In this document: positions 1,364 through 23,584 of the stretch, in pieces
How positions within the stretch are numbered: position 1 is the stretch's first letter
Layout: each line of letters begins with the position of its first letter
Assembly (NCBI RefSeq): GCF_004209775.1
Contig: NZ_CP035914.1
Coordinates: forward strand, 1,922,001 to 1,986,000
Origin: Synechococcus sp. WH 8101
GTDB lineage: Bacteria > Cyanobacteriota > Cyanobacteriia > PCC-6307 > Cyanobiaceae
Direction of reading: 5' to 3'
Length of the DNA stretch: 64,000 bases
Translations under genes and position numbers: made by a program
The notes under the pieces: generated by a model
Database searches by the model: none
The model's input: only the letters and a program-made list of their open reading frames with translations
Told to the model about the DNA's origin: nothing

Positions 1364-1367
1364 CCGC

Positions 1368-2381
1368 TCACCTCCAACCCGTCAGGCCACTGAGGGCACG
1401 GATGTACTGGGCCCGTTCGTAATCCGCGGGCGTGGCGCAACGCTGCTGACTCATGCAGCCGATCAGATCGGCGACCGCGCCGTAGTCGTGCGCCTCCAAC
1501 CACTGACTGAGTTCCAGCTCGATCGCCTGCAACCGGTCCGGACCGTGGCGCAAGAGGCTGGCCACCAGCTGGGTGCCACTCGCTCCGGCCATTAATAGGC
1601 GCACCACATCGGTGGCGCGCTGCACCCCGCCGCTGGCGGCGAGCTGCAGCGGTTCCCTGCCGTGCAACAAGGCGATCCAGCGCAGGGGCAGATGGAGATC
1701 GTGAGGGGTGGAGAGCAGTGGATTGGCCTGCAGCTCCAGCCGCTCGATGTCGATATCGGGTTGATAAAAACGATTGAACAGCACCAGACCATCGGCGCCG
1801 GCTGCGGCAAGACGATGGGCCAGCCCCCGGAAGTTGGTGAAGAAAGGGCCGAGTTTCACCGCCAGGGGAAGCCTCACCTGCGCCCGCACACCACGCACGA
1901 TCGCTTCAATCTCCGCCTCGATCTCACCGCTGCTCAGCAGGGGGTCGGTGGGGAGGCTGTGAATGTTGAGCTCCAGCGCCTGGGCGCCGGCGCTCTCGAT
2001 CCGGCGCGCCGTCTCCACCCAGCGGCCGGGATGGGTGCCATTGAGACTGGCAATCACCGGGATCGTCAGTTGCTGCCGGGCCCGCTCGATCAGGCGCAGA
2101 TAGAGATCCACCCCCTCATGCACCACGGCACAATCGGGGAGGTAACTGAGGGCCTCGCCGTAGCTATCGCTGCCCAGGGTGGCGTGATCATGGAGCGCGA
2201 GCTGTTCCTGTTCGATCTGCTCCTCAAACAACGAATGCAGCACAATCGCTGCAGCGCCATGACGCTCGAGCTCCAGCATCGGGCCGACATGGTCGCTGAG
2301 GGGCATGGCCGCTCCCACGATCAGGGGCGATCGCAACGGCAGCCCGAGCCAATCGCATCGCAGATCCGGATGGCTGGTCAT
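1368..2381 (-). CDS. Dihydroorotate dehydrogenase-like flavoprotein coupled to PFOR
   Basis: 337 residues with a PyrD-type TIM barrel: substrate and FMN loops resembling class 1 dihydroorotate dehydrogenases (ASLNGTHPGRW near 110-120, ALELNIHSLPTD near 135-146, LAVKLGPFF near 173-181, AASGGVQ near 247-253). Genes of this type are commonly found directly after nifJ in cyanobacteria and anaerobes, but their reaction is not established; the true pyrimidine-pathway role is unlikely here. The start overlaps the nifJ stop by ATGA and the stop is 4 bp before hypD. A redox partner or accessory role for PFOR is inference from this coupling. Confidence 0.85.
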   Translation of the reverse strand: MTSHPDLRCDWLGLPLRSPLIVGAAMPLSDHVGPMLELERHGAAAIVLHSLFEEQIEQEQLALHDHATLGSDSYGEALSYLPDCAVVHEGVDLYLRLIERARQQLTIPVIASLNGTHPGRWVETARRIESAGAQALELNIHSLPTDPLLSSGEIEAEIEAIVRGVRAQVRLPLAVKLGPFFTNFRGLAHRLAAAGADGLVLFNRFYQPDIDIERLELQANPLLSTPHDLHLPLRWIALLHGREPLQLAASGGVQRATDVVRLLMAGASGTQLVASLLRHGPDRLQAIELELSQWLEAHDYGAVADLIGCMSQQRCATPADYERAQYIRALSGLTGWR

Positions 2382-5974: not shown

Positions 5975-6165
5975 GGCGCGTGCTCCGTCACAAGACTGAG
6001 GGCGATCCCCACATGCACCAGCACCCGATCGCCCACCATCGCCTCGGGCAGGCAGGCCAGGCTCACCTGTTGATGCACGCCACCGAAGTCGACCTCGGCC
6101 ATCCGGAACAGGGGGTCCGCCGTCTCCTCAATCGTGCGGATCACTCCGGGGGTGGCCAGGCACAT
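5971..6165 (-). CDS. hypC: Hydrogenase maturation chaperone HypC
   Basis: 64 residues starting MCLATPG; Cys2, exposed after Met removal, is the residue that binds the Fe(CN)2CO unit and contacts HypD. The remainder is the small OB-fold with DFGGVHQQVSLACLPEA and VGDRVLVHVG, standard for HypC/HupF. The longer reading frame upstream lies inside hypF, so the internal ATG at 6163-6165 is the start. It overlaps the hypF end by 25 bp and the nifJ start by ATGA. Confidence 0.95.
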   Translation of the reverse strand: MCLATPGVIRTIEETADPLFRMAEVDFGGVHQQVSLACLPEAMVGDRVLVHVGIALSLVTEHAP

Positions 6166-8588: not shown

Positions 8589-9301
8589 CGGGGCTGCAGC
8601 GCTCCCAACCGCAGCTGCTGCATCAGGGCATCCATGCCGGCGCCAGTTCTGGCTGACACCTCGAGCACCGTCGCATCCGGAGCCACCTGGGCGATGTGCT
8701 GCAGGGCGAGCGACCGGTTGAATCCCACCGCTGCCGCCAGATCGCTTTTGCTGATCACCACCAGATTGGCGCTGTAAAAGGTGGCTGGGTATTTCAAGGG
8801 CTTGTCCTCACCCTCGGTAACCGACAGAAGAACGATGCGCTGGGTCTCGCCCAGGTCGTAGGCGGTGGGGCAGACCAGATTGCCCACGTTTTCAATCACC
8901 AGCAGCTGGAGCTCCGGCAGGGGAAGCGCATCCACAGCAGCGCCGAGCATCGCGGCCTCCAGATGACAGGCCTGTCCTGTGGTGATCTGAATCGCCTGCA
9001 CACCGGAGCGTTGCAGGCGACGGGCATCGTGGTCGGTGGCGAGATCGCCGACGATGACCGCCATGGCCGCGGGATCGCAACGGCTGGCCAGGGCTTCAAG
9101 CAGGCTGGTCTTGCCCGATCCCGGCGACGACAGCAGGTTCACCACATGAACGCCGGCCTGCTCGAAGCGTTGGCGCAGCAACGCAGCACCAGCGTCGTTC
9201 TGGGCGAGCAATGCGGTGTGCAGATGCAGCATCCGCTGGTGTTGATGCTGATGCTGGGGAGCCTGCAGGGAGGTGAGACTGCAGCCGCAATCAGTGCACA
9301 T
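8585..9301 (-). CDS. hypB: Hydrogenase nickel incorporation GTPase HypB
   Basis: 238 residues. HypB is the SIMIBI-class GTPase that, with HypA, delivers nickel to the large subunit. It has an N-terminal CTDCGC nickel motif at 2-7, a short HQHQHQ stretch at 17-22 that may add metal binding, a P-loop (SSPGSGKTS, 58-66), and the G-domain metal residues Cys112-His113 and Cys144. The start is the ATG at 9299-9301. The 65 bp separating it from hypA is the only sizeable gap in the cluster, so an internal promoter there is possible but none is clearly visible. Confidence 0.96.
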   Translation of the reverse strand: MCTDCGCSLTSLQAPQHQHQHQRMLHLHTALLAQNDAGAALLRQRFEQAGVHVVNLLSSPGSGKTSLLEALASRCDPAAMAVIVGDLATDHDARRLQRSGVQAIQITTGQACHLEAAMLGAAVDALPLPELQLLVIENVGNLVCPTAYDLGETQRIVLLSVTEGEDKPLKYPATFYSANLVVISKSDLAAAVGFNRSLALQHIAQVAPDATVLEVSARTGAGMDALMQQLRLGALQPR

Positions 9302-9366
9302 GACTGCATCGCAATGGTCTCAGGTTAGACAGCACAGCGCGACTTGACCGTGGCCAATGGCGAGCC

Positions 9367-9705
9367 TCACGTGACGTCGAGTGAGACCAACTGCAACTCC
9401 CGTCCTCGCTCCAATGAGGCGGGACCGCCGCAAACGGGACAGACCAACAGACCGGCTCGCACCGCAAACACCTGGCCACACGAACGACAGCGCCCCTCCG
9501 CCGGCACCGACTCGATCTGAAGCCGGGCGCCGGCGGCGAGGCTCTCCGCCATCACCACCTCAAAGGCCATGGCGAGACAGTCGGGCTCAACGCCAGCCAG
9601 GGCACCGATGCGCAGCGTGATCGCAACGATGCGCTCGCCGCCATGGCGATCCAGCGCCTCCAGCGCCTGCCGTCGCACCGCCTCCATCAGGCTCAACTCA
9701 TGCAC
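9367..9705 (-). CDS. hypA: Hydrogenase nickel metallochaperone HypA
   Basis: 112 residues from a GTG start at 9703-9705, chosen because it gives the invariant MHELSL N-terminus whose His2 binds nickel; a GGAGG ribosome-binding site lies just upstream. The zinc site is Cys73, Cys76, Cys89 and Cys92. HypA hands nickel from HypB to the hydrogenase large subunit. The first 13 bp overlap the end of hoxW. Confidence 0.95.
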   Translation of the reverse strand: MHELSLMEAVRRQALEALDRHGGERIVAITLRIGALAGVEPDCLAMAFEVVMAESLAAGARLQIESVPAEGRCRSCGQVFAVRAGLLVCPVCGGPASLERGRELQLVSLDVT

Positions 9706-10214
9706 AACGCTGTTGCCTCCAGCCATTGCCGCACGAGCCGGCGCGCTGCCGGCAACTGCAACTCCATCGCCGCCGACAACCGGGTGCCATGGGCGATCTC
9801 TGTGGCGGGGATCCGGAGCATCGCCGCTTCCGGTTCGGCATGCCACAGCGATCGCGCCAGGGCCAGAAGCTGCGCAGCCGTCAGGTGATGGCTGTTCAAG
9901 ACCGACTCGCCGCAGGCCACAGGGCGAGACACCGATACGAGCAGACGCTGCAACACCGGTGCCGCGGGCGCCGCAGGCGACAGCCAGGCATCGATGAACA
10001 GCACCCGATCCACGCCGGCCAGATCGGCCACAAGTTCCGGCGTCAATTGGTGGACGCTGCGCACCCTGAGGGCAGCATCAACAGCCTTGTCATCCACAAC
10101 AGCCTCCCATTCCTCCGCCAACAGCCGCCCCACCCCGTCATCGCCCCGCAGCGGATTGCCGATACCGATCAGAAGGTTCCGGGCCACCCCGGTGGCCATC
10201 GCTGCATCAAGCAT
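9693..10214 (-). CDS. hoxW: Hox hydrogenase maturation endopeptidase HoxW
   Basis: About 173 residues if started at the ATG at 10212-10214, which has a GGGGGA ribosome-binding site 9 nt upstream; an ATG at 10197-10199 would give 168. The opening LLIGIGNPLRGDDGVG is the HycI/HupD-type protease signature, including the first metal-sensing Asp; an FIDAWLSP strand and an SHHLTA motif follow. The enzyme trims the C-terminal extension of HoxH after nickel insertion. It lies 14 bp after hoxH, as expected for the dedicated protease. Confidence 0.92.
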   Translation of the reverse strand: MLDAAMATGVARNLLIGIGNPLRGDDGVGRLLAEEWEAVVDDKAVDAALRVRSVHQLTPELVADLAGVDRVLFIDAWLSPAAPAAPVLQRLLVSVSRPVACGESVLNSHHLTAAQLLALARSLWHAEPEAAMLRIPATEIAHGTRLSAAMELQLPAARRLVRQWLEATALCMS

Positions 10215-10228
10215 CCATCGACATCCCC

Positions 10229-11686
10229 CTACCGCGCTCGCTCCGCCAACACGGTGCCCCGGTGATCCAGCACTTGCAGATGCAGCGGCATCTGCCCAGC
10301 GGCATGGGTACTGCAACTGAGGCAGGGGTCGTAGCAACGGATGCCGGCCTCCACCCGGTTCAGCAACGCCTCGGGAATCGTGGCGTCCGCGGGAACGGGC
10401 TGAGGGATGAACTCCCGGGCGATCTGGGCCACGGTGCGGTTCATGGCCAGATTGTTCTGGCCCGTGGCGATGATCAGATTCACGGCGGTGATCAGACCGT
10501 TGTCGTCCACGCGGTAGTGGTGGAACAGGGTGCCCCGGGGCGCTTCACTGACGCCGATCGCTTCATTGGCGTTGAGCTGGGCCCGGGCCCGGATCCGCCC
10601 CGACAGCAGGCTGTCATCGGCGACCAGCTGTTCCATCCCCTCCAGACAGGCCACGATCTCCACCAGACGCGCCTGGTGATACGCGAACGATGAGGTGACG
10701 ATCCGACCGCCACTGGCGGCGGTGCCGTTACGGGAGCGGAACGCCTCCAGTTCGCGATCGGCCCAGGGGGTGCCGATCCGCTCGCAGACGTTCAGGCGGG
10801 CCAGGGGGCCCACCCGATAGAGGCCCTGGGGATAACCCAGGGGCCGGTAATAGGGGAATTTCAGATAACTCCAGCTCTCCACCGCTTCGCCCACCACGGC
10901 GGCGTAGTCCTCTTCCCGCACGCCATCGGCCACCACCGTGCCGTCACTGTCGATGAAGCGAAGCCGTCCCTCGATGCACTCCCAGCCGCCGTCGTCTGCA
11001 ACCAGAGCCATGAACAGGGAGGGGAAGTCGCCGAAGCTGCGCTGCTCCCGCTCCAGCGGTCCATCCAGCAGACGATTGAGCAGATCAAGAGCCAGGCGCA
11101 CCGTCTGCTTTGCCTCCGGCAGGTTGGCCAGGATCCAGTCGCGCGCCTCCGGCGACAGCGCACTGCGCACTCCACCGGGTACGGCCCAGGCGCTGTGAAT
11201 CTTGCGCCCACCGAGCAGCTCCAGCACCTGCTGTCCGAACTGACGCAAACGGATCCCCGCACGGGCCAGGTCGGGATCGGCGGCCATCAGACCGAACACA
11301 TTGCGGCGATCGGGGTCGCTCTCCCAGCCGAGCAGGAAATCAGGGCTGCTCAGGTGAAAAAACGAAAGCGCGTGGCTCTGGCAGATCTGCGCCAGGTTCA
11401 GCAAGCGCCGCAGTTTCCGAGCTGCCGGCGGGGGCTGCACCGCCAGCAGCTTGTCGCCGGTCTTGGCGGCGGCAAGCAGATGACTGACCGGACAGATGCC
11501 GCAGATTCGGGCGGTGATGCCCGCCATCTCCGTGAAGGGGCGGCCTTCGCAGAAGGTCTCGAAGCCCCGGTATTCCACGACGTGAAAGCGGGCATCGGCG
11601 AGCTGGCCCTCGTCATCGAGATGGAGGGTGATCTTGGCGTGACCCTCAATCCGGGTCACCGGGTCGATCGTGATCGTGCGCATCAT
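10229..11686 (-). CDS. hoxH: Bidirectional NiFe hydrogenase large subunit HoxH
   Basis: 485 residues from the ATG at 11684-11686, which overlaps the hoxY stop as ATGA. HoxH carries the NiFe active site. The N-terminal L1 motif [10 protein letters not shown] supplies Cys62 and Cys65; the C-terminal L2 motif DPCLSCSTH supplies Cys455 and Cys458. About 24 residues follow His461 and should be cleaved by HoxW. All four nickel cysteines are present, so the enzyme looks catalytically intact. Confidence 0.97.
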
Positions 11687-12291
11687 CCGAAACGGGGTGG
11701 CTGGGGCGGGATGGGCTCGGCCCGGTCCTGGACCACCGATGGCGACCCATCGCCTTGCAACAACGGAGCGATCGCCTCCCGGATGCGCGTCGCCGACGGT
11801 GGGCAACCCGGCAGCCACACGTCCACGGCAATCACCTCATGCAATGGCAGCACCCGCTCCAGCAGCTCCGGCACGATTCCAGGCGCTTTTGGGAGCATTC
11901 CGGTCGCATCCGCCAGTTCCAGATAGCCCCGCTGCAACACAGCGGCACGGCTTCCACCCTCCTGCCGCTCCTGCCAGAGATTGCGCAGGGCGGGCACATT
12001 CCCGGTCACGGCGCAATCGCCGAACGACACCACGCAGCGGCTGCGGGCTCGTAGCTTCAGGGCCAGCTCCAGGTTGTCGGTGTTGGCCACCGCTCCTTCC
12101 ACCAGGCAGACATCCACCTGCTCGGGGAAGTCCTTGCGGTCGTTGGCGACCGGCGAGTAGACGACGTCGGCCAGAGCGGCGAGCTCAAACAACCACTCGT
12201 CGAGATCGAGGAAAGACATGTGGCACCCGCTGCATCCCGCTAACCAGACGGTGGCGAGACGGCAACGATCCGTGGGCGGGCTGGTGGTCAT
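11683..12291 (-). CDS. hoxY: Bidirectional hydrogenase small subunit HoxY
   Basis: 202 residues, a short small subunit with only the proximal 4Fe-4S cluster, as in the NAD(P)-linked group 3d. The four ligands are visible: WLAGCSGCH (Cys20, Cys23), GDCAVTGN (Cys93) and PGCPPS (Cys163). It pairs with HoxH to form the hydrogenase moiety. It is ATGA-coupled to hoxU upstream and hoxH downstream. Confidence 0.97.
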
Positions 12292-13022
12292 GACAGGGGG
12301 TCTCCGGTGGGATGCCAGCGATGCTGCTCGCGGGCCTGTCGCAACAGCAGCGGGCGCTCACGGTGGGGATGTTTTTCCGCCGTCGTGTCGTCCTTGCGGA
12401 CGATGGCGCCGGTGGGGCACACATCCACGCACTTGCCGCAGGAGGTGCAGGCGCTGACCTCGCCCCAGGGCTGATCGAGTCCGGCGATGATGCGGCACTG
12501 TTCGCCTCGGTCGGCCACATCCCACACGTGGGCGCCTTCGATCTCGTCGCAGACGCGCACGCAGCGGGTGCAGAGAATGCAACGGTGATGGTCGATGCTG
12601 AACTGGGAGTGGGAGCTGTCGACGCAACGATCGGGGTAGCGGTAGGGAAAGCGGGAGTGATCCATGCCCACCTCGCTGGCCACATCCTGAAGTTCACAGG
12701 CGCCATTGGCGACGCAGAAGGCACACACGTGGTTGCCTTCTGCAAAGAACAGCTCCACTGCCATCCGGCGGTAGGTCTGCAGGCGTGGCGTGGCGGTGAG
12801 AATCGCCAGGCCCTCCACGGCTTCGGTGGCGCAGGCGGGCAGTAGGCGTTGGCTATCGACCTGCTCCACCAGGCACAGGCGGCAGGCACCCACAGGCGTC
12901 AGGCCATCCAGATGGCAGAGCGTGGGCACGCGACTGCCAGCGGAGCGGATCGCCTCCAGCAACGTGGCACCGGCTGGCACCGCCACCTCGACGCCATCAA
13001 CGCTCAGGGTGAGAACGCTCAT
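12288..13022 (-). CDS. hoxU: Bidirectional hydrogenase diaphorase subunit HoxU
   Basis: 244 residues, NuoG-like N-terminal domains only. Ligands in order: 2Fe-2S (Cys36, Cys47, Cys50, Cys64), the His98/Cys100/Cys103/Cys109 4Fe-4S site, and two CxxCxxCxxxC clusters (Cys148-158 and Cys192-202). HoxU relays electrons between HoxF and HoxYH. It has ATGA overlaps with hoxF and hoxY. Confidence 0.97.
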
Positions 13023-14641
13023 CGGCCTAGCTCAGGAGTATCCAGGCACTGGGAGGGCTGGCGGCAGGCGGCCTGATACTCCTGACGGAAGTAGCGCAGC
13101 GTGCTGAGCACCGGATTCGGGGCGGCCTGACCGAGACCGCAGAGGCTCATCGCCTGCACCATCCCGCAGAGCTCTTCCAGTCGTGCCAGATCGGCGAGGT
13201 CGGCGCGACGTTCGACGAAGCGATCGAGCAAAGCGGCCAACTGCACCGTGCCGGCGCGACAGGGAATGCATTTGCCGCAACTCTCGTTGCAGCTGAACCG
13301 CATGAAATGGCGTGCCACCTCTGGCATCGAGGTGGTTTCACCCATCACCACCATGCCCCCGGACCCCATCATCGACCCCAGGGCCCTGAGGCTTTCGTAG
13401 TCGACCGGCGTATCGAGCAGATGGGCAGGGATGCACCCCCCCGAGGGGCCGCCGGTCTGCACAGCCTTGACGCCCCCGTTGGGTCCATCGGCGCCTGGAA
13501 CGCCACCTCCCATGGTCTGAACCACGGTGCGCAGACTCGTGCCCATCGGCACTTCCACCAGACCGGTGCGCTCCACAGCCCCGGAAAGGGCAAACACCTT
13601 GGTTCCCTTGCTGCCCTCAGTGCCGATCGCAGCGAACCAGTCGCCGCCTTCGCGCAGGATCGTCGGCACGGCCGCGAAGGTCTCCACGTTGTTGATCAGC
13701 GTTGGCGCGCCGGCCAGACCGGACTGGGCCGGGAACGGAGGCCGGGGGCGCGGCGTGCCGCGCCGTCCTTCGATGGAGGCCATCAAAGCGGTCTCCTCAC
13801 CGCAGACATAGGCACCGGCGCCGACTCGCACCTCGAGCTGCAAGCGAAAGCCGCTGCCGGCGATCGCAGGCCCCAGCCAGTGCTGGCTGCGGGCCTGACG
13901 CAGGGCCAGGCGGAGGCGATCAATCGCCAGCGGGTATTCAGCACGCACGTAGATGAAGCCGTGATCAGCGCCAACGGCGTAGGCGGCGATCGCCATGCCC
14001 TCGATCAGGCGATGGGGGTCACTCTCGAGCACGCTGCGGTCCATGAAGGCGCCGGGATCACCCTCATCGGCGTTGCACACCAGGGCCCGCGGGCCGGGCG
14101 GTTGCAGGGCCACCGTGTCCCACTTCAGACCGGTGGGGTAACCGGCTCCACCCCGACCGCGCAGACCGCTGCGCTTCACCTCCTCCCGCACCTCCGCAGG
14201 CGTCATCTCCGTCAACACGCGCTGCAGCTGGCTGTAGGCACCGTGGGCCACGGCATCGTCGATCGATTCCGGATCGATGCGACCACAGGAGGCCAGCACC
14301 ACCGACTGCTGCAACGCAAAGAAGGGATGGTCGAGATCGAGGCGTTGCCCCCGCAAGGACGAACCCTCCTGGTGCGGGAGATCCGCGGCCAGACGCAGCA
14401 GATCCGCGGCCTGCTCCGGGCGTAGACCGGCATACACGGCGGAGGGGCGATCGTCTATCGGATCAAGGGCCACCAGCGGACCACGCCCGCACAGACGCAG
14501 GCAGCCCACCGATTTGATCTCGACAGCTTCCGCAGTGCCACCGAGCTGATCGCGGGCCTGAAGCAAGGCCTGCTGAACGGCAGCGGCACCTGCCGAGCGA
14601 CAGCCACTGGCACTGCAACAACGCAACTGAGTGGCCGTCAT
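13019..14641 (-). CDS. hoxF: Bidirectional hydrogenase diaphorase subunit HoxF
   Basis: 540 residues. An N-terminal thioredoxin-like 2Fe-2S domain (Cys9, Cys14, Cys47, Cys51) is fused to a NuoF-type flavoprotein. GRGGAGYPTG at 162-171 and YVCGEETAL at 278-286 form the NAD(P)/FMN site; Cys455, Cys458, Cys461 and Cys501 bind the 4Fe-4S cluster. It exchanges electrons with NAD(P)H, and ferredoxin or flavodoxin have also been proposed as partners in cyanobacteria. ATGA-coupled to hoxE and hoxU. Confidence 0.97.
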   Translation of the reverse strand: MTATQLRCCSASGCRSAGAAAVQQALLQARDQLGGTAEAVEIKSVGCLRLCGRGPLVALDPIDDRPSAVYAGLRPEQAADLLRLAADLPHQEGSSLRGQRLDLDHPFFALQQSVVLASCGRIDPESIDDAVAHGAYSQLQRVLTEMTPAEVREEVKRSGLRGRGGAGYPTGLKWDTVALQPPGPRALVCNADEGDPGAFMDRSVLESDPHRLIEGMAIAAYAVGADHGFIYVRAEYPLAIDRLRLALRQARSQHWLGPAIAGSGFRLQLEVRVGAGAYVCGEETALMASIEGRRGTPRPRPPFPAQSGLAGAPTLINNVETFAAVPTILREGGDWFAAIGTEGSKGTKVFALSGAVERTGLVEVPMGTSLRTVVQTMGGGVPGADGPNGGVKAVQTGGPSGGCIPAHLLDTPVDYESLRALGSMMGSGGMVVMGETTSMPEVARHFMRFSCNESCGKCIPCRAGTVQLAALLDRFVERRADLADLARLEELCGMVQAMSLCGLGQAAPNPVLSTLRYFRQEYQAACRQPSQCLDTPELGR

Positions 14642-15126
14642 GGCGCTTCTCCCAGACCGAGCTGCTGCAGGCGCTGATCCAGGCCTGCAGGATCATCCAG
14701 CGGCAGCTTCGGCTCCAGCGCACCATCCACCACCAGCACCGGCGCCTGGCCGCAAGCTCCGAGACAACTGACGTGTTCCAGCGCCCACTCGCCATTGCCG
14801 GCCGGATCATCCAGACGCACACCCAGACGGCGTTCCAGGAGGCTGGCCAACTCCGCCCCGCCTTTGACGAAACAGGCGGTTCCGAGGCAGATGGCGCAGC
14901 GATGGGCCGTGGGGGCCTTCAGACGGAACAGGTGATAGAAACTGGCAACCCCCATCACGGTGGCGTGGGGCAAGTGCAACTCCTGCGCCACCTGATCCAG
15001 CGCCGAACGCGGCAGGTAGCCATGCATCTCCTGCACCTGATGCAGCACCTCGATCAGGGCATCAGCCCGCCCCCGATGCTGGCGGATCAGGCGGGAGGTG
15101 CGGGTTGTTGCGGATCCTTCCACCAT
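14638..15126 (-). CDS. hoxE: Bidirectional hydrogenase subunit HoxE
   Basis: 162 residues, NuoE-like thioredoxin-fold 2Fe-2S protein: Cys80 and Cys85 in CLGTACF and Cys121 and Cys125 in CLGACG. It is the first gene of the supercluster. Its ATG at 15124-15126 is preceded by GGGAG about 8 nt away. It reads divergently from the deacetylase-family gene, leaving about 56-65 bp for both promoters. HoxE is the subunit that marks the five-subunit cyanobacterial form of the enzyme. Confidence 0.96.
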   Translation of the reverse strand: MVEGSATTRTSRLIRQHRGRADALIEVLHQVQEMHGYLPRSALDQVAQELHLPHATVMGVASFYHLFRLKAPTAHRCAICLGTACFVKGGAELASLLERRLGVRLDDPAGNGEWALEHVSCLGACGQAPVLVVDGALEPKLPLDDPAGLDQRLQQLGLGEAP

Positions 15127-15182
15127 CCCAATGCTCCCGGCTCGACCGTCCCCGATCCTTCTGGTAGCTCTGATGCAGGTCG
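15127..15182. promoter_or_regulatory. Divergent promoter interval of the hox supercluster and the deacetylase gene
   Basis: Only 56 bp separate the hoxE ATG from the earliest start (TTG at 15183) of the divergent deacetylase gene. The large minus-strand unit probably starts transcription here, or within the neighbouring coding sequence. I see no clear -10/-35 pair and no obvious LexA-like CTA-N9-CTA element; assignment is positional. Confidence 0.35.
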
Positions 15183-16136
15183 TTGTCAGTGATGAGGGCA
15201 GCTTCGCCGGATCAGGCCCGGGTGGGATTGGTCTTTGATCACAGGCTGCAGGGACACGACACGGGCCCGGGCCATCCGGAGCAGCCGGAACGGGTGCGTG
15301 TTGTGGAGCAGGCCCTGCGGCAACGGGGCCTGCTGCAGCGCTGCCGGCGAATCGACGCCCGACCGATCACCGATGCGGAACTGCTGCGCTGCCACAGCCA
15401 GCGCTATCTCAACACCGTGCGCCGCGATGTGGCCTATGGCCGCGGCCAGCTCTCCACCGGCGATACCGCCATCGGTGACGACAGCGAGGATGTGGCGCGC
15501 CTGGCTGCCGGTGGCACCCTGGCGGCGGTGGATGCGGTGCTGCAGGGTGCGGTGGATCGGGTCTTCGCCCTGGTGCGACCTCCCGGACATCATGCCGAGG
15601 CGAATCGGGGCATGGGCTTCTGCCTGTTCAACAACATCGCCCTGGCGGCCCGCCATGCCCAGGCCGCTCATGGCGTCGAGCGGCTGCTGATCCTCGACTG
15701 GGATGTGCATCACGGCAATGGCACCGAAGCGATCCTCGGCGCCGATCCATCCGTGCTGCTGGTGGGCGTCCATGAACGAGGCAACTATCCCGGCAGCGGC
15801 GAGAGCAGCACCGCATCGTCGATCAACATCCCCTTGCCGAGCGGGAGTGACGGCCCGCCCCTGCTCCAGGCTCTCGAACACACCCTCGTCCCGGCTGCTG
15901 CCCGCTTTCAACCGCAACTGGTGTTCATCTCGGCGGGATTCGATGGCCATGCCGACGATCCACTGGCTGGGTTCCAGCTGCAAGCGGCCGACTACGGCGC
16001 CCTCACCCAACTGGCCCTGGCCGTAGCCCGAGACCACGCCGACGGCCGCTTGGTGTCAGCGCTGGAAGGGGGTTACAACCTGCCGGCGTTGGCCAGCAGC
16101 TGCTGCGCTCACGTGGAAGCCTTGCTCAAGGCCTGA
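15183..16136 (+). CDS. Class II histone-deacetylase-superfamily amidohydrolase (AcuC/acetylpolyamine amidohydrolase type)
   Basis: Up to 317 residues; the start may be TTG 15183, GTG 15189 or ATG 15192. Zinc-hydrolase signatures are complete: RPPGHHAE with the His136-His137 dyad, [11 protein letters not shown] with Asp174 and His176 as metal ligands, AGFDGH with Asp254, and EGGYN with Tyr298. Family members remove acetyl groups from lysines or polyamines; the substrate here is unknown. It diverges from hoxE and its last 28 bp overlap, tail to tail, an acyl-CoA synthetase/acetyltransferase, which suggests a paired acetylation function (inference). Confidence 0.9.
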
Positions 16137-18934
16137 TCGGTGGGATGATCGCGGGTCCAGCGGCGCAGATCAACCCTGGCCTCCACCACGTCGCCGGCGT
16201 CACGGAGGCTGAAACCGAGCTTTCGGCAGATCTGCCGCATGCCGTGATTCTCCGGAAGAACCTCGGCCAGCACATGATCAATGCCCTCCTGGCGCCCGAT
16301 GTGAAGAAGCTGGAATAACAGCGATGTGCCAAGCCCACGCCGCTGGTGGGAGTCGCGCACCAACAGGGAGAACTCAGCATCGTTGCAGCCGTGGAGTCGA
16401 CTCAGTCGGGCCACCGCCAGCACCTGCCGTTCCTCCTGCCCGCCCCTGCCGTCGACCATGGCGGGATGCTCGGCCACCAGGGCCATCTCCCGGTCGTAAT
16501 CGGTGCAGCAGATACGCACCAGACGCTCATGGGCGGTGCGATGCCGCAGCGACATCTGGTGGAAATAGCGCAGATGCACGCTGTCGCCCGACAACTGACC
16601 GTGAAAGGCCACCAACAACGCCTCATCCTCCGGACGGATCGGGCGGATCAACACCTCGGTGCCATCGGAAAGTTCCATCCGACGGATGTAGTTGGTGGGG
16701 TAGGGGCGAATGGCAGGCCTGGGCAGATGGCAGCTGGCCCCGGCGCCCGGCTGCAGCACGATGCGGGCATCCAGAGCCACCAGGGGACGCACCGGATCCC
16801 CCGGCAGCACCAGCAGGGGGTTGATGTCGACCTCACGGATCGATGGCTGCTCGAGCACCAGCTGACTGAGGCGTACCAGCAGCTGCTCAATGGCAGCCTG
16901 ATCAGCGGGCGGGCCGCCACGCACACCGGCCAGGGCCGCAAACACTCGCGTCTGTTCCATCAGACGCCGCGCCAGGGTGGTGTTCAGGGGCGGCAGGGCA
17001 ACGGCGCTGTCGCGTTGCACCTCCACCAGCGTGCCGCCGCTCCCGAAGAGGATCACCGGGCCGAACTGGGGGTCAAGGCTGCTGCCCACGATCAGTTCCA
17101 AAGCCCCATGGCTCGGCAGCATGGCTTGCACGCTGACGCCAGCGAAGGCCTCCGGGCCGCACCGCTCCGGGATCGTGCACGCCATCGTCTCCCAGGCATG
17201 GCGGACCGCCTCCGGCCCGCCTAAATCCAACCAGACGCCGCCCACATCGCTTTTGTGGGTGATCCGTTCGCTGTGGAGCTTGAGCACCACCGGATAGCCG
17301 ATGGTCGCCGACGCGTCCAGGGCTTCTTCAAGGCTCTTGGCCAAGCGAGTTTCCAACACAGGGATGCCGTGGCTGGCGAGCACCTGTTTGGCCTCTACTT
17401 CGCTCAACAGCTCCCGGCCCTGGCGTCGCGCCTGCTCCAACACCGCCACACCGCGGCTGCGGCCACCATCGTGATGGGCCGGATCGCGCTCGTCCTCCGG
17501 CAGCAGGCTCGGCGTCTCATACACCCCCCGCAGGTTGTAAGTGTGTTGCCAGAGCGTGGTGAACAAGCGAGCGGCGGCGTCCGGGTAGTCGTTGGTGGCG
17601 ATCCCGGCCTCATTGAGCAACTCCACCGCTCCGGTGACGTCGGCGCCTCCCATCCAGCTCGCCACCAGGGGCTTGCGGCTGCCAGCGGCAAGCTGGCGCA
17701 GACGCTCGGCCGTGGCGAGCGGATCGGTCATCGCCTGTGGAGTGAGGATCACCAGCAGGCCGTCGCTGCCGGGATCGGCAAGGGCGATCTCTACAGCGCG
17801 GGCATAGCGCTCCGGATCGGCATCGCCAAGGATGTCGATCGGATTGGCATGGCTCCACTGCGGCGGCAACACCTGATCAAGCGCTGCGATCGTGTCGCCC
17901 TGAAGGGAGGCCAGGGTGCCACCACTGAGCACCAGCGCATCGGTGGCCAGCACGCCTGGACCGCCGGCGTTGGTAACGATCGTGAGCCGTGGCCCCTGGG
18001 GGCGAAGCGGTTGCTTGCCGAGCACATCCGCAAGCTCGAACAGATCGGAGAGCTGGTTGACCCGAAGCACACCGCAACGGCGGAGTGCGGCATCGAGAAC
18101 CTGATCGCTGCCCGCCAGGGCACCGGTGTGGGAAGCGGCCGCCCGGGCCGCCTCGCTGCTGCGCCCGCCCTTGATCAACACGATCGGCTTGGTGAGAGCC
18201 ACCTCCCTGGCTGCGGAGAGAAAGGCGCGAGCATCACCGATCGCCTCCATGTAGATCACGATGCTGTGGGTCTCCGGGTCATCGCCCAGATGGGTGATCA
18301 GATCGCCCCAGTCCACATCGAGCATGGACCCCATCGACACAAAGGCGCTGAACCCGACCTTTTCACGCCGACTCCAATCGAGAACGGCCGTGCAGATCGC
18401 TCCGGACTGGCTGAGAAAACCCACATGACCTGGCTCCGCGATCGTCGAGGCAAAGGTGGCGTTCAAGCCGAGGCGGGGGTTCATCAGGCCCAGGCAGTTG
18501 GGACCGAGCACTCGCATCCCCGTGCCGCGCACCAGATCCATCACCCGAGCTTCGCGGGCCAGCCCCTCCGCTCCCACCTCGCGGAAACCAGCGGAGATGA
18601 TGATCACGGCCTTGACGCCGGCGGCGACGCATTCAGCGATGCGATCGGGGACTCCCGGCGCCGGGGTGGCGATCACCGCCAGGTCGATCGGTTCAGGCAC
18701 TTCAGCCAGCGCGCTGCAGCAACGCACTCCCAACACGCTGTGCCGCCGTGGGTTAATCGGGTAAACCGTGCCGCCGAAGGGCGAGCGGATCAGATTCCAG
18801 AACAGAGTGCGTCCGACGCTGCCAGGCCGTTCACTGGCTCCAACAACGGCGACGCAACCGGGCTCAAACAAAGCCCGCAGGGGCATCGAGCCGCTGCGCA
18901 GGATGTCGGCCGTGGGGTCAAAAAGCCTGGGCAC
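16109..18934 (-). CDS. ADP-forming acyl-CoA synthetase / GNAT acetyltransferase fusion (Pat-like)
   Basis: 941 residues from a GTG start; an ATG at 18884-18886 is an alternative. Domain order: CoA-binding Rossmann domain ([14 protein letters not shown], 28-41), succinyl-CoA-ligase-like flavodoxin domains, ATP-grasp domain (about 500-725) and a C-terminal GNAT domain (about 752-925, with RRGLGT at 866-871 and Glu854 on the preceding strand). Pat/PatZ lysine acetyltransferases share this layout, but their synthetase part is reported inactive because the catalytic His is lost. Here His269 in [11 protein letters not shown] and His560 in THKSDVGGV are both kept. It could therefore make ATP from acetyl-CoA, acetylate proteins, or both. 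Confidence 0.88.
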
Positions 18935-19009
18935 ACCCGACGGAACCTCGCTTCCCGGGTTGTAGCCAGACCCAGTGCAATTGGCGCTAGCAAGGCAACC
19001 GAGCGAGCG

Positions 19010-19249
19010 TCAGTCGAGCGCGTCGCAGTATTCATCAATCATTTCGACCTTCGACACCGTGGAGGTGTGCGCATCGGTGAGCTGCAGACGCTCCATCGCC
19101 GTGGTGGTTGTGATCTGGTGCGCGCCGTACTGAGCACAGACGAGATGGTGACGCTCATAGGTGCTTTCACAACCGCTCAGCGCAGCCGCGACAACAGCGG
19201 TGCTGAGGAGCGCTGCTACTTGACCAAAGACCCTCGCATTAACCGTCAA
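19010..19249 (-). CDS. Small predicted lipoprotein, unknown function
   Basis: 79 residues from a TTG start at 19247-19249; no in-frame ATG precedes the signal region. The N-terminus is a type II signal peptide (hydrophobic VAALLSTAVVAAALSGC with the lipobox LSGC near residue 27), so the mature part would be a lipidated peptide of about 53 residues containing three further cysteines if the lipid-bearing one is included. No family recognised. It stands alone between the synthetase/GNAT gene and repeat copy 1. The rare start codon lowers confidence. Confidence 0.55.
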   Translation of the reverse strand: MTVNARVFGQVAALLSTAVVAAALSGCESTYERHHLVCAQYGAHQITTTTAMERLQLTDAHTSTVSKVEMIDEYCDALD

Positions 19250-19297
19250 GCGTTTATGCGCACGTTGCCATCAGGTTGAATCAGCTGCAGCCCCCAA

Positions 19298-19722
19298 GCA
19301 ATGCGTGATTACACCGATTGCCGATGTGTTCCAGGCGACCAAGACTGTGGGCATCGAGATCGGAGGAACCGGATGACGGCAGACACTCCACCTGAGCAAC
19401 ACCAAGAAGCAAGCTGACTTTCTGGCCCCTGCTCCAACAGTTTTCACACCCAACGAAGGGCTCGTCACCTCATCAGGTCAACAACGCCTGAACGACCCTC
19501 CACACCGCACCGCCACAGGTGCCCTTCGGAGTTAAAAGCCCCTCACCTGGAACCATGGCCCCAGGCGCCACCAGTCAGACGCTTCCTGTTTCCTTTCGCT
19601 TCACACACTGTCCTTCGCAACGGAGTTTCTTTCTGATTCGCGTTCAGTTCAGTCGTTGACAGGAAACTGATGAACAAACGAGCGACCTAGGCCGTCTCTT
19701 CCATCCGGGAGGGGCGGCCTCC
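19298..19722 (+). repeat. 425-bp direct repeat, copy 1
   Basis: This block matches 21652-22076 base for base without indels; I count four mismatches (two near the 5' end, one near 19573 and one near 19687). It contains no long ORF on a convincing frame. Inside are a GGAGG followed by an ATGA stop/start overlap at 19373-19376 and, at its 3' end, two hairpins. The 3' boundary falls right after the terminator-like stem. It fills most of the gene-free stretch 19250-19787. Confidence 0.93.
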
Positions 19723-19727
19723 CTTTT
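19642..19727 (+). ncRNA. Candidate small RNA 3' region, copy 1
   Basis: Two consecutive hairpins read on the plus strand. The first pairs 19642-19646 plus 19649-19652 with 19667-19675 (2-nt bulge), with a 14-nt loop at 19653-19666 containing GACAGGAAA. The second is a 14-bp stem (19689-19702 with 19707-19720, using G-U pairs) with a 4-nt loop, followed by CCCTTTT. The layout, an exposed purine-rich loop followed by a terminator, fits a small RNA and loosely recalls Yfr2-type cyanobacterial RNAs, but no family match could be made and the 5' end is unknown. Confidence 0.35.
19689..19727 (+). terminator. Rho-independent-type hairpin at the end of repeat copy 1
   Basis: Perfectly paired 14-bp stem closed by AUCC (stem arms 19689-19702 and 19707-19720), followed by CCC and a run of four T at 19724-19727. 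The same stem occurs in copy 2 without a T run. Confidence 0.6.
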
Positions 19728-19787
19728 GACAAGGCGTCACAGTTCCTGCCATGAGGCAGGCCGAGATCCGGGCTCTGAAAATGCAGA

Positions 19788-20279
19788 TCAGCGGCTGGCA
19801 GCGTGCCCCGGACAAAAGCGGTTCGCCACTGCCAGAGCCGTGGGGTCGTTGGTCACGGGCTGCCAACCTTTCGGGACTGACCGGGGGATGCGCACATCAC
19901 CGAGTCGGTCAAAGGTGCGGTCCTGACAGTCGAGGCGATAGGTGAAAAAGGAGCGGGTCGACCCCGCGGGCGTCCCGCCCGTGAAGCTCGGAGCCACATA
20001 GCCATCACGCCAACACCGGTTGCGCTCGCAGCGCACCGTGCCGGGGTTGCCTTGATTCAGTCGAGCGGGGATGGCTGGCCACTTGATCACCGTGTGGCCG
20101 ACGAATTCCAGATATCGATCACGACGACCGCTGAGCACAATCGGTCGCACGGAGGCATCGTCGTAGCTGTAGGGGCTTGGCACCGGCACGGCAACCATCT
20201 CCGCCATCGCTGCACCCTCCAGGCCGATTAGCACCTGAAGCAGGGCCGCTGCAGCGGGTATCAACGGCAAACGAGGCAT
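19788..20279 (-). CDS. Secreted hypothetical protein
   Basis: 163 residues with a clear signal peptide: a hydrophobic stretch to about residue 24 ending GAAMA before EMVAVPV. The mature part has four cysteines (CERNRCW, LDC, FCPG) that could form two disulfides, suggesting a periplasmic or extracellular protein. No family recognised. It lies in the segment bracketed by the 425-bp repeats and reads toward copy 1, so it may share that terminator region. Confidence 0.7.
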   Translation of the reverse strand: MPRLPLIPAAAALLQVLIGLEGAAMAEMVAVPVPSPYSYDDASVRPIVLSGRRDRYLEFVGHTVIKWPAIPARLNQGNPGTVRCERNRCWRDGYVAPSFTGGTPAGSTRSFFTYRLDCQDRTFDRLGDVRIPRSVPKGWQPVTNDPTALAVANRFCPGHAASR

Positions 20280-20384
20280 CGGTCTTCGCTTGGGCCCTCA
20301 CTGTCGATGGCACAGAGCCCGAAGATCTCCCCCAAATGGGGGAGGGTTGTGACCAGCTGCAACTCAGGCTGCGGTATCAAGGCA

Positions 20385-20624
20385 ATGACGTTCGGCAGCA
20401 CGGCATCGATGGCAAGCGCAGGGGGACCGACGCCGAATCCGATCGGCCATGCGGTGGAGCAACTCTCGAACGCAGTGTTTCCCCAGGCATCGCTCGGACA
20501 ACTGCTGTTCACCCTGCTGTTACTCGGCCTCGTCGCGCTGTTGATCGGCGTCCCCATCGCCCACCAACGTCGCCACGTGCAGCAGTTTCAGAAGCGCGTT
20601 CAGGAGCGCGACAAACCGGACTAG
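20385..20624 (+). CDS. Small single-pass membrane protein
   Basis: About 79 residues from ATG 20385; an upstream ATG at 20307 would give 105 and one near 20410 would give about 70. The recognisable part is a membrane helix (SLGQLLFTLLLLGLVALLIG) followed by a basic, charged tail (HQRRHVQQFQKRVQERDKPD), so the C-terminus should be cytoplasmic. No family assignment. Divergent from the secreted protein at 19788-20279. Confidence 0.55.
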   Translation: MTFGSTASMASAGGPTPNPIGHAVEQLSNAVFPQASLGQLLFTLLLLGLVALLIGVPIAHQRRHVQQFQKRVQERDKPD

Positions 20625-20637
20625 AGCTCAAACGCCC

Positions 20638-20793
20638 TTACAGCTCAAACACCGTGCCCAGCAGGCTGGCCGGATGATCCACCCCATCCGTGCACAGCAA
20701 TTCCAACTGCAGCAGCAGGACGACATGAGCCGAGAAGCGAAGCGCCGAAACGATCGCGAGGCCGAGGCAGAGAGGGCAGTGCATCAATCCCAT
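20638..20793 (-). CDS. Possible small hydrophobic protein
   Basis: 51 residues from the ATG at 20791-20793: a hydrophobic N-terminal two thirds (ALRFSAHVVLLLQLELL) ending LLGTVFEL. Codon third positions are GC-rich on this strand, which favours coding, but a basic ORF on the opposite strand overlaps and no family is recognised. Confidence 0.3.
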   Translation of the reverse strand: MGLMHCPLCLGLAIVSALRFSAHVVLLLQLELLCTDGVDHPASLLGTVFEL

Positions 20794-20891
20794 GGATGCA
20801 GCTTCGAGCGGTTCTCCCTCCGCTGACGAGAACCGTGCGATTTCTTGACCTTGCGGTGAAGCAAGGAGGCCACAGGGTCTCCGCACTGCGG

Positions 20892-21128
20892 TCAGTAGTA
20901 ACGCCCTGGATACTCCCCGGGATGGTCCACCCGCGTCACCCGCACGCCGGCCACGGATCGCCCTGAAAGGCGCAGAAGGTCGCTCCCCGAAACGGCATAA
21001 CCCAACTCCTGGGCGAGCATGGCCACCTGATCCGCAGTGATCGCCTCCTGCACCTGCCGCCGCAACTGCGGATCGCGCGCCAGCCGCTGAAGAAACTGCT
21101 CGAGCGGATTCAGAGGCCTGCCATGCAA
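20892..21128 (-). CDS. Nif11-domain small protein
   Basis: 78 residues from a TTG at 21126-21128 with AGGGT upstream. Residues 6-55 read as a Nif11 domain: a helix-rich FLQRLARDPQLRRQVQEA, then ITADQVAMLAQELGYAVSGSDLL. Nif11 domains serve as leaders of some cyanobacterial RiPP precursors and also occur in stand-alone small proteins. The 23-residue tail here has no double-Gly site and no Cys/Ser/Thr-rich core, so a RiPP precursor role is not supported. No modification enzyme is nearby. Confidence 0.65.
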   Translation of the reverse strand: MHGRPLNPLEQFLQRLARDPQLRRQVQEAITADQVAMLAQELGYAVSGSDLLRLSGRSVAGVRVTRVDHPGEYPGRYY

Positions 21129-21293
21129 TCGAGGCAGACCCTACAGGCAGCGATCAGCCTTAATCCTTTCTCCCTTGCGCAGCAGCCGCTGCGCCAGCGT
21201 CTATTGCCCCAGGGAGACCATCTCAGCCGCACCTGTTCGTTCTGGGCCCCCACCTGGCAGCAACAGGCGGGTTGGGCACCGGAGGTGGCCTGA
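21123..21293 (+). CDS. Possible 56-residue protein, unknown
   Basis: ATG at 21123 to TGA at 21291-21293, divergent from and overlapping by 6 bp the TTG start of the Nif11 gene, and ending 4 bp from the converging membrane-protein gene. The sequence is Gln- and Trp-containing (SFWAPTWQQQAGWAPEVA at the end) and fits neatly between neighbours. No family is recognised and a competing minus-strand frame exists. Confidence 0.3.
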   Translation: MQSRQTLQAAISLNPFSLAQQPLRQRLLPQGDHLSRTCSFWAPTWQQQAGWAPEVA

Positions 21294-21297
21294 GGAG

Positions 21298-21579
21298 TCA
21301 GCGCTCTCGCCAGCGATTCCAGGCCTTTCGATGCCATGGGGTGACGTCCTGCAGGGGAGGCGGAGGCCCTTGCTGGACCCGTTCCATCCGCTCCAACTCC
21401 GCACGCAGCTCACGCAACACGGGGATCAAAAGTAGCGCTGCAACGAGTCCCACCACCAGCAGCAGCGGCAGCAAAGTGACCAGCCAGATCGCAGCCACGG
21501 TCGCAGCCACAATCCCGGCGAGCATGGCACTCAGTCGCCGCAGCCATCGCGGCCGGCTTCGCCCAGGAAGTTGCTTCAT
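21298..21579 (-). CDS. Small membrane protein with basic N-terminus
   Basis: 93 residues from ATG 21577-21579 (a start 24 bp upstream is possible). A basic N-terminus (MKQLPGRSRPRWLRRL) precedes about 40 hydrophobic residues that could form one long or two short membrane helices. A charged coiled-coil-like RELRAELERMERVQQ and a Pro-rich soluble tail follow. No family recognised. It is the last gene before repeat copy 2, oriented away from it. Confidence 0.6.
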   Translation of the reverse strand: MKQLPGRSRPRWLRRLSAMLAGIVAATVAAIWLVTLLPLLLVVGLVAALLLIPVLRELRAELERMERVQQGPPPPLQDVTPWHRKAWNRWRER

Positions 21580-21651
21580 GACAGCACCGCTCTCGAGCTG
21601 CACTCTGCCGCGGGCACGCCAGATTCAACCTGGACCAGCGTCAGTCGTGAG

Positions 21652-22076
21652 GCAATGCGTGATTGCACTGATTGCCGATGTGTTCCAGGCGACCAAGACT
21701 GTGGGCATCGAGATCGGAGGAACCGGATGACGGCAGACACTCCACCTGAGCAACACCAAGAAGCAAGCTGACTTTCTGGCCCCTGCTCCAACAGTTTTCA
21801 CACCCAACGAAGGGCTCGTCACCTCATCAGGTCAACAACGCCTGAACGACCCTCCACACCGCACCGCCACAGGTGCCCTTCGGAGTTAAAAGCCCCTCAC
21901 CTGGAACCATGGCCCCAGGCGCCACCAGCCAGACGCTTCCTGTTTCCTTTCGCTTCACACACTGTCCTTCGCAACGGAGTTTCTTTCTGATTCGCGTTCA
22001 GTTCAGTCGTTGACAGGAAACTGATGAACAAACGAGCGACTTAGGCCGTCTCTTCCATCCGGGAGGGGCGGCCTCC
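21652..22076 (+). repeat. 425-bp direct repeat, copy 2
   Basis: Same length and orientation as copy 1, 2354 bp downstream. It is bordered by the hexamer TCGTGA at 21645-21650 and again at 22078-22083, each one base outside the repeat, resembling a target-site duplication. Copy 1 shows no such flanking repeat. The block fills most of the gene-free stretch 21580-22138. Confidence 0.93.
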
Positions 22077-22081
22077 TTCGT
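21996..22081 (+). ncRNA. Candidate small RNA 3' region, copy 2
   Basis: Same two hairpins as copy 1: the loop with GACAGGAAA at 22007-22020 and the 14-bp stem 22043-22056 with 22061-22074. The single C-to-T difference near 22041 falls just before the second stem and leaves both helices intact. The stem is followed by CCTTCG, not a T run, so termination may be weaker here and read-through toward the GH57 gene is possible. Confidence 0.3.
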
Positions 22082-22138
22082 GAATGGTCATCGCAGCCAG
22101 CCTGGACCATGCTTTGAACAAACGGAGCAGCTGCCACC

Positions 22139-23584
22139 TTGATCACCACCACTGCTCCACCGCCGATCGCCGGCCGCGAAGACGAGCTCCGGGCCCTGAT
22201 GGAACAGTCCGCGCTCAGACCACTCATCTCCTCAGAGCGACCGCTGGCGTCGAGCCGCTCCGCCTTTGCCTGTGCGCTGCACATGCATCAGCCCACGATC
22301 CCAGCCGGGCCCGATGGAGCGCTGATCTCCCACCTGCAATACATGCTCGACCACCCCGGCGAGGGGGATAACCACAACGCCGAGCCATTTGCCCATTGCT
22401 ACCGGCGAATGGCCGAGCTGATTCCCGAGCTGATCGGTGAGGGCTGCGAGCCGCGGATCATGCTCGATTACTCCGGCAACCTGCTCTGGGGTGCCACCCA
22501 GATGAGGCGTGAGGACATCACTGGCGCGCTCCGATTCCTGGCCTGCGACCAGCAGATGCAGCGCCATGTGGAGTTCCTCGGCACCTTCTGGAGCCATGCA
22601 GTGGCCCCCTCCACGCCGATCCCGGATCTGAAGCTGCAGATGAGCGCCTGGCAGCATCAGTTTGCGGCGATGTTCGGTGATGAGGCGCTGCAGAGGGTGC
22701 GCGGCTTTTCGCCACCGGAAATGCATCTGCCCAACCATCCCGACACCCTGTTCAGCTTCATCACCGCTCTCCGGGAGAGCGGTTATCAGTGGCTGCTGGT
22801 TCAGGAGCACAGCGTGGAAACCCTCAGCGGTTCCCCCCTGAGCAGGGAGCAGTGCCTGCTGCCCAATCGCCTGGTGGCCCGCAATGCTTGCGGTGAGGAG
22901 ATTGCGATCACAGCGCTGATCAAGACCCAGGGCTCCGACACCAAGCTCGTGGGTCAGATGCAACCCTGCTATGAGGCACTGGGGCTTGATCGCCTCCCCC
23001 TCGGCACCACAACGGTGCCCGCCCTGGTGACACAGATTGCCGATGGTGAAAACGGGGGCGTGATGATGAACGAATTTCCCGAAGCCTTCCGGCAGGCCCA
23101 TCGCCGTCTCCGTGAGAACGGAAACGGTTGTATCGCCATCAACGGCACGGAGTATCTGGCGCAGCTGGATGCCGCCGGAATCGACACCAGTGCATTCCAA
23201 ACCATTCAGGCGATGGGTCAGAGCCGGCTCTGGGAGGTGGTGGGATCGGCCCCGACGCCGGCAGCTGTGCAGGCTGCGATCGAGCGACTGCAGCAGGCCG
23301 ATCCCTCCTTTGCGATGGAGGGATCCTCATGGACCAACGATCTCAGCTGGGTGCAGGGTTACGACAACGTGCTGGAGCCGATGCAGGAACTCAGCGCCCG
23401 TTTTCACGCCCGCTTCGGTCCACTGCGCGATCAGGATCCAACGATCACCTCAACAGCCCCTTACCAGGAGGCCCTCCTGCATCTACTGCTGCTGGAAACC
23501 AGCTGCTTCCGTTACTGGGGGCAGGGCACCTGGACCGACTACGCCAAGGAGATTCACCGGCGCGGCATGGCGCTGCTTGGCTGA
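22139..23584 (+). CDS. Glycoside hydrolase family 57 protein
   Basis: 481 residues. The frame is closed by a TGA at 22115-22117, so a TTG at 22139 is the only early start; GGAG lies upstream. The GH57 hallmark HMHQP is at 48-52, and the MPNHPD-like, MNEFPE and WEVVGS segments fit a GH57 catalytic barrel. GH57 enzymes act on alpha-glucans (amylase, branching, pullulanase types); specificity cannot be told. It may work in glycogen turnover, which would supply fermentation. A DM13 lipoprotein gene follows about 50 bp later. Confidence 0.82.
   Translation: MITTTAPPPIAGREDELRALMEQSALRPLISSERPLASSRSAFACALHMHQPTIPAGPDGALISHLQYMLDHPGEGDNHNAEPFAHCYRRMAELIPELIGEGCEPRIMLDYSGNLLWGATQMRREDITGALRFLACDQQMQRHVEFLGTFWSHAVAPSTPIPDLKLQMSAWQHQFAAMFGDEALQRVRGFSPPEMHLPNHPDTLFSFITALRESGYQWLLVQEHSVETLSGSPLSREQCLLPNRLVARNACGEEIAITALIKTQGSDTKLVGQMQPCYEALGLDRLPLGTTTVPALVTQIADGENGGVMMNEFPEAFRQAHRRLRENGNGCIAINGTEYLAQLDAAGIDTSAFQTIQAMGQSRLWEVVGSAPTPAAVQAAIERLQQADPSFAMEGSSWTNDLSWVQGYDNVLEPMQELSARFHARFGPLRDQDPTITSTAPYQEALLHLLLLETSCFRYWGQGTWTDYAKEIHRRGMALLG

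Follow-up and report, generated by a model that had tools for sequence, protein, structure and literature searches.

Why should a 425-nt sequence occur twice, almost letter for letter, a short distance apart on the chromosome of Synechococcus sp. WH 8101? The question arises from a 64,000-nt stretch of contig NZ_CP035914.1 (positions 1,922,001 to 1,986,000 of the forward strand), hereafter the window, in which copy 1 (19298-19722) and copy 2 (21652-22076) of a repeat lie in direct orientation on the plus strand at an offset of 2,354 bp. Pairwise alignment gives 99% identity over 425 nt each, with four mismatches (copy positions 14, 18, 278 and 390) and no insertions or deletions, just as a preliminary description of this DNA had reported; a repeat-finding program run on the window returned the 300-nt reference copy only. 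That description took the pair for a mobile or retro-copied unit. The repeat is real, but it is not a transposable element. Rather, its copies are very probably genes of Yfr103, an RNA of Synechococcus and low-light Prochlorococcus, and each copy is likely a complete, functional-looking RNA gene of that family, with an upstream palindrome, a -10-like box, a predicted 5' end and an intrinsic terminator. The latter grade of confidence is the one we attach to our best explanation as a whole, comprising the Yfr103 identity, the history of the copies, a translated mini-open reading frame (mini-ORF) and a proposed mode of action.

Anatomy and Identity of the Repeat

The unit begins with an imperfect palindrome, GCAATG...CGATTGC, and finishes, as had been claimed, at a terminator hairpin, whose stem is 13 bp long. 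No inverted repeat spans the whole unit; the earlier statement that terminal inverted repeats are lacking therefore stands for the unit in its entirety, although its edges are the palindrome (5') and the terminator stem (3'). Family copies share, on the same strand, the order GCACGCC box, palindrome GCAATG...GATTGC, nAnnnT box, CATCGAG (at the predicted 5' end), GGAGG and a start codon, and carry the conserved blocks GGCCCCTGCTCCAAC and GGCCCCAGGCG downstream. Copy 1, which the family profile matches end to end, conforms to this plan on the plus strand. In family alignments its palindrome (GCAATG...CGATTGCC, 19298-19322) occupies about -55 to -31 relative to the predicted 5' end; a -10-like box, AAGACT (19341-19346), has the spacing and nAnnnT pattern of most members and places the predicted 5' end near 19353. 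There follow a nearly invariant Shine-Dalgarno sequence, GGAGG (19362-19366), a covarying start-codon hairpin, the mini-ORF MTADTPPEQHQEAS with its stop codon (19373-19417; assigned by family alignment and a codon-position test), and an intrinsic terminator stem-loop (19689-19720) that runs into TCCCTTTT and whose stem is kept by compensatory changes among relatives. Copy 2 carries the same mini-ORF, MTADTPPEQHQEAS (21727-21771, by family alignment), and a terminator stem-loop at 22043-22074, both on the plus strand. The terminal stem reads AGGCCG...CGGCCT in most copies, again with compensatory changes that preserve it; unrelated terminators occupy its place in four further copies of this genome (near 963.4, 968.0, 980.9 and 1194.7 kb) and in Prochlorococcus members. 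This shared promoter-to-terminator anatomy identifies the unit as an RNA gene, and the ends of the repeat are therefore the ends of a gene plus its promoter. The global RNAalifold consensus of the family is weak (-8.8 kcal/mol), with support limited to the terminator stem and the start-codon hairpin.

Two further features of this anatomy deserve mention. The GCACGCC box, followed by a CACTNT-like sequence, is a second conserved upstream element at -38 from GCAATG, and as such lies outside the repeat; it is present in most copies and weakened at copy 1. Directly at the terminator, most members carry a near-invariant stretch, ATG-CAC/AAC-AAA-CGA-GCG-NNN-TAG (MHKRAS or MNKRAT and a stop; window 19669-19689, for example). 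We do not claim it as a second mini-ORF, given that its CGA and GCG codons hardly vary and that the ATG or the stop is missing in some copies; it may be an RNA motif rather than a reading frame.

The assignment to Yfr103 draws on the strains in which the family occurs. Matches were found in WH7803 and RCC307, and in genomes taken to be those of KORDI-49, KORDI-52, KORDI-100, CC9902, MIT9313 and SS120. A model of the family core gave two matches in WH7803, and the locus in the presumed MIT9313 genome is G115:C1:1656087-1656178. The genome likewise taken as CC9605 has seven strong matches (69-97 bits) and one weak partial one (31.9 bits). In Synechococcus CC9605, published Yfr103 has seven paralogs, 290-328 nt long, and its homologs occur in WH7803, RCC307, KORDI-49, KORDI-52, KORDI-100, CC9902, SS120 and MIT9313, that is, in Synechococcus and low-light Prochlorococcus (PMC5069720). 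That study places a conserved imperfect palindrome between -58 and -29 relative to the 5' end (PMC5069720), in agreement with the place of the palindrome described above. The RNA made up 55.2% of CC9605 mdRNA-Seq reads in situ in the Red Sea and is also very highly expressed in MIT9313; it was described as a non-coding RNA with strongly conserved secondary structure and enigmatic function (PMC5069720).

Several points limit or weigh against the reading of the copies as functional Yfr103 genes. Measured from the predicted 5' end to the end of the hairpin, four copies in the presumed CC9605 genome span 323-325 nt, while the other three, at about 359 nt, exceed the published range, and the copies of WH 8101 itself measure 367 nt. 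The identification moreover proceeds from strain list, copy number, place of the palindrome and approximate length. Finally, the terminator of copy 2 is without its T-run, which has decayed to TCCTTCGT. Even so, we regard it as close to certain that the 425-nt copies are Yfr103 genes.

A Conserved Mini-ORF Under Selection

Near its 5' end, Yfr103 carries a Shine-Dalgarno-led mini-ORF that reads M-x-D-T-P-P-E-Q... and is mostly 13-14 amino acids long. We surveyed about 130 relatives and could anchor 131 of 137 cores. The start codon stands two to three codons ahead of DTPP in every anchored core, and the stop falls exactly seven codons past it in 112 of them. In the seed alignment, the distance from the Shine-Dalgarno sequence to the AUG differs by 0-2 nt between members without loss of the frame. 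For a codon-position test the frame was fixed from the start and stop codons alone, and not from DTPP itself; parsimony over 120 sequences, on a tree built from flanking sequence, placed 7, 3 and 55 changes at the first, second and third positions of the DTPP codons, respectively. These comparisons demonstrate, at the sequence level, purifying selection on the amino acids Asp-Thr-Pro-Pro.

A small hairpin encloses the start codon, and its two arms covary (GCC/GGC, GCT/AGC, ACC/GGT, TCCA/TGGA, GTCC/GGAC). The mean best stem of this hairpin is 3.42 bp, whereas 500 shuffles gave 2.96 +/- 0.085 and never reached the observed value; relatedness inflates tests of this kind, but 55 distinct arm pairs of many stem types are represented.

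As Yfr103 was published as non-coding (PMC5069720), it could be argued that the reading frame is a by-product of constraint on RNA sequence or structure. The mini-ORF does overlap both the hairpin and a pairing between the Shine-Dalgarno sequence and CUCC, and its C-terminal codons are unconstrained. However, 55 of the 65 changes inferred in DTPP sit at third positions, a Shine-Dalgarno sequence and start codon attend all anchored copies, and large-genome, probably freshwater forms swap ACTCCACCT for ACCCCCCCT, by which the pairing is weakened and TPP kept. We accordingly judge a purely non-coding Yfr103 improbable, and translation of the mini-ORF, as predicted from these patterns, highly probable. 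The conserved mini-ORF is provisionally new, in that it is undescribed in the CC9605 study (PMC5069720).

Several copies nonetheless tell against a translated, pause-inducing frame. About one anchored copy in eight (15 of 131) stops three codons past DTPP, and the codons c3, c4 and c7 that follow the proline pair change freely at all positions. In the genome taken as CC9605, a pair of loci (L194 and L195) has a frameshifting deletion in the DTPP codons, and a sub-clade of three others (L196, L197 and L198) has DGPT in place of DTPP, with Pro-Pro lost. The early stops and the frameshift imply that some copies can do without translation, and the DGPT clade speaks against a pausing mechanism common to all copies.

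History of the Two Copies

If the copies are genes, how did two of them come to stand so close together? Copy 2 (21652-22076, plus strand) lies upstream of a conserved 481-aa gene (22139-23584, plus strand; neighbour gene cluster 1) that has no Pfam match and whose product may be GH57-like. The same arrangement recurs in six relatives (G042, G018, G001, G011, G017 and G023), and this synteny points to copy 2 as a resident gene at its ancestral position. The preliminary description had instead envisaged insertion of a non-autonomous mobile or retro-copied element at copy 2 with a 6-bp target-site duplication, and had asked after empty sites with a single TCGTGA. The exact common ends of the unit at dispersed sites speak for such an element, as does the hexamer TCGTGA, which does bracket copy 2 at 21645-21650 and 22078-22083. 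Yet the orthologous site was found filled, not empty, in all six relatives, and in the nearest of them, G042, the left flank is TCGTGA and the right flank TCATGA; the bracket in WH 8101 therefore stems from a point change and is a coincidence. Such a bracket is to be expected by chance in about 2% of cases, as 420 of 20,000 random 425-nt stretches of the window had one and the same 6-mer no more than 12 nt from each end. Moreover, gene prediction finds no transposase between the copies, as had also been noted, and none was seen beside the unit. The interval includes an ORF for a Nif11-domain peptide (20892-21128, minus strand). Searches of 50,697 phage records, 72,556 plasmid records and IMG/VR returned no member of the family, which speaks against carriage by phage or plasmid. 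An insertion element or miniature inverted-repeat transposable element (MITE) was rejected on the strength of the filled orthologous sites and the TCATGA flank. Short dispersed repeats with exact ends are common to MITEs and the Yfr103 unit, whereas the latter has neither spanning terminal inverted repeats nor a real target-site duplication and keeps its orthologous sites between species. A mobile origin is thus very unlikely, and we are nearly sure that no transposition took place at copy 2.

The preliminary description had named as its own alternative a tandem segmental duplication of the whole 2.35-kb unit, in whose favour stands the direct orientation of the copies at a 2,354-bp offset. 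However, the flanks of the copies are not duplicated, and the 1.9 kb between them occurs once, as core DNA that in G042 adjoins copy 2 only. The flank comparison refutes this alternative, and we allow it a negligible chance.

Copy 1 stands at the right edge of a strain-specific hydrogenase and fermentation island of about 20 kb (window 1-19297; about 1,921,186-1,941,297 of the genome) in a region where G042 has no match to window 15000-19297 and where the left neighbour in G042 corresponds to position 1,921,186 of WH 8101, such that about 20.6 kb is inserted in the latter. The island encodes a NiFe-hydrogenase (large subunit at 10229-11818), a HoxF-like protein, HypB, HypF and HypD, as well as a pyruvate:ferredoxin oxidoreductase (2378-5974), a histone-deacetylase-like protein and an acyl-CoA ligase. 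A protein search with the WH 8101 genome as positive control did not find this ligase in any of the 30 remaining genomes of the genus.

Copy 1 might be a fresh ectopic duplicate of copy 2 that arose with the insertion of the island and has no older history. The two copies are indeed closer to each other (99%) than copy 2 is to its G042 orthologue (96.5%), and neither G042 nor G018 has a copy at the position homologous to copy 1. On the other hand, when the 38 nt ahead of each copy are compared, 20 positions agree, a score that only 18 of 20,000 random pairs equalled. The remnant between copy 1 and the return of core synteny (19723-19798, plus strand) contains, 42 nt past copy 1, the start of 38 nt (19765-19802) that resemble the interior of the 481-aa gene at 84% (42.8 bits; the best of 300 random fragments scored 28.3). 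Diverged upstream sequence and a gene fragment suggest an old, diverged locus that was later homogenised. Concerted evolution of dispersed copies elsewhere also argues against a fresh duplicate: the four copies in the genome taken as CC9902 are identical over the core, as are the three of G132, and the two strains differ from each other. In all, a fresh duplicate appears rather unlikely. We infer instead that copy 1 is what remains of a second locus of Yfr103 plus gene, brought in with the island or left beside it, and gene conversion probably explains its near-identity to copy 2. Within-strain homogenisation of dispersed Yfr103 copies is general, and would be the same process as at copy 1. 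A small tandem array was also seen in a relative (L015, G013:C1:2267934-2269259), in which three identical-looking copies stand head to tail with 24-nt spacers.

Distribution of the Family

Other copies, for which the preliminary description had suggested a search, were readily found. BLASTN with copy 1 gave 11 matches in its own genome, representing eight loci; beyond the two in the window and the four with unrelated terminators, these lie near 1253.9 and 1893.2 kb. Every genome of the genus that was searched had matches (all 24 others in a first search, all 31 in a second), and none was found in the 15 genomes from other families. Among GTDB contigs, almost exclusively Synechococcus records were returned. 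A nearly full copy (238 bits) was also retrieved from a contig of a Rubripirellula metagenome-assembled genome (L074); that contig most likely belongs to Synechococcus and was mis-binned.

For a family-wide search we used a model of the 97-nt core built from sequence alone. It matched 210 of the 251 genomes of the bacterial family, which represent 55 of its 59 genera, and gave one to 10 matches per genome. The large-genome members of other genera are probably freshwater, Cyanobium-like forms, and one genus with genomes of 1.6-1.7 Mb (g33) had no matches to this model. A known Rfam family was ruled out: at the gathering score or an E-value of 0.5, Rfam returned nothing save tRNA and one chance match to a long non-coding RNA.

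The loci have little in common beyond the unit itself. The sole neighbour shared among several of them is the 481-aa gene, along with a few Nif11-domain peptides near three loci, and without a general shared neighbour the unit is therefore not a cis-regulatory leader of one gene family as a general role. Near the 1194-kb copy, three Nif11-type leader peptides were observed (L039:281-1493), one of which reads to a VAGG end.

Proposed Mode of Action and Significance

What might such a small frame at the head of an abundant RNA accomplish? One answer is that the peptide itself functions, as a signal, in the membrane or by binding a protein, and that the RNA is mainly its mRNA. DTPP and an E/G-A/V near the end of the frame are conserved, and the position of the stop is fixed in the large majority of anchored copies. 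But the freely changing codons, the copies that finish after three further codons and the roughly 300 nt of RNA with conserved blocks beyond the stop argue against it, and we consider a functional peptide unlikely, if slightly less so than a purely non-coding RNA. Only the first codons are constrained, and for this reason we hold that what matters is more likely the act of translation than the peptide.

Ribosomes slow at runs of proline unless EF-P acts, and a pause of this kind can switch the structure of the RNA that follows (PMC5021804). By analogy, high-level transcription from a palindrome-controlled promoter would supply Yfr103, on which ribosomes would begin at the AUG gated by the hairpin and be slowed by the early Pro-Pro, leaving the remaining peptide free to vary. 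Translation of the mini-ORF could then set the state of the structured RNA downstream, in which exposed CUCC-rich conserved loops could pair with the ribosome-binding sites of target mRNAs. Yfr103 might thus be a translation-gated regulator, with a hairpin-controlled AUG, a minimal reading frame constrained at Asp-Thr-Pro-Pro, a pause that sets an RNA acting on mRNAs, and copies homogenised by gene conversion. We offer this scheme tentatively, and Pro-Pro pausing as its mechanism is possible but doubtful.

In the Red Sea, more than half of all 5'-end reads that were assigned to CC9605 came from Yfr103 (PMC5069720), and the mini-ORF with its start hairpin provides a concrete handle on how this RNA might work. 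The idea is directly testable in WH7803, which is genetically tractable. For annotation, it matters that Rfam has no entry for Yfr103 genes and that they can pass, as happened here, for mobile repeats; their reach into large-genome, probably freshwater relatives and the concerted evolution of their copies bear on this as well.

Comparison with Known Systems

Among bacterial RNAs, the dual-function small RNAs, exemplified by SgrS and RNAIII, likewise combine a regulatory-size RNA with a short ORF led by a Shine-Dalgarno sequence; in Yfr103, however, the frame occupies the very 5' end, and constraint is confined to its first codons. Proline-rich leader peptides such as mgtL also have a short 5'-proximal frame in which prolines can slow ribosomes ahead of a structured RNA (cited in PMC5021804), whereas most Yfr103 copies have no co-regulated downstream gene and possess a terminator of their own. 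The closest counterpart is Yfr103 as published (PMC5069720), which the present family resembles in its multiple copies, a length that agrees in part (about 290-360 nt), strain distribution, seven strong copies in the presumed CC9605 genome, an imperfect palindrome at a like distance upstream and a stand-alone transcript with terminator. It departs from that account in a range that is wider, extending to large-genome members of other genera, and in that an RNA published as non-coding here carries a conserved, Shine-Dalgarno-led mini-ORF with a covarying start hairpin.

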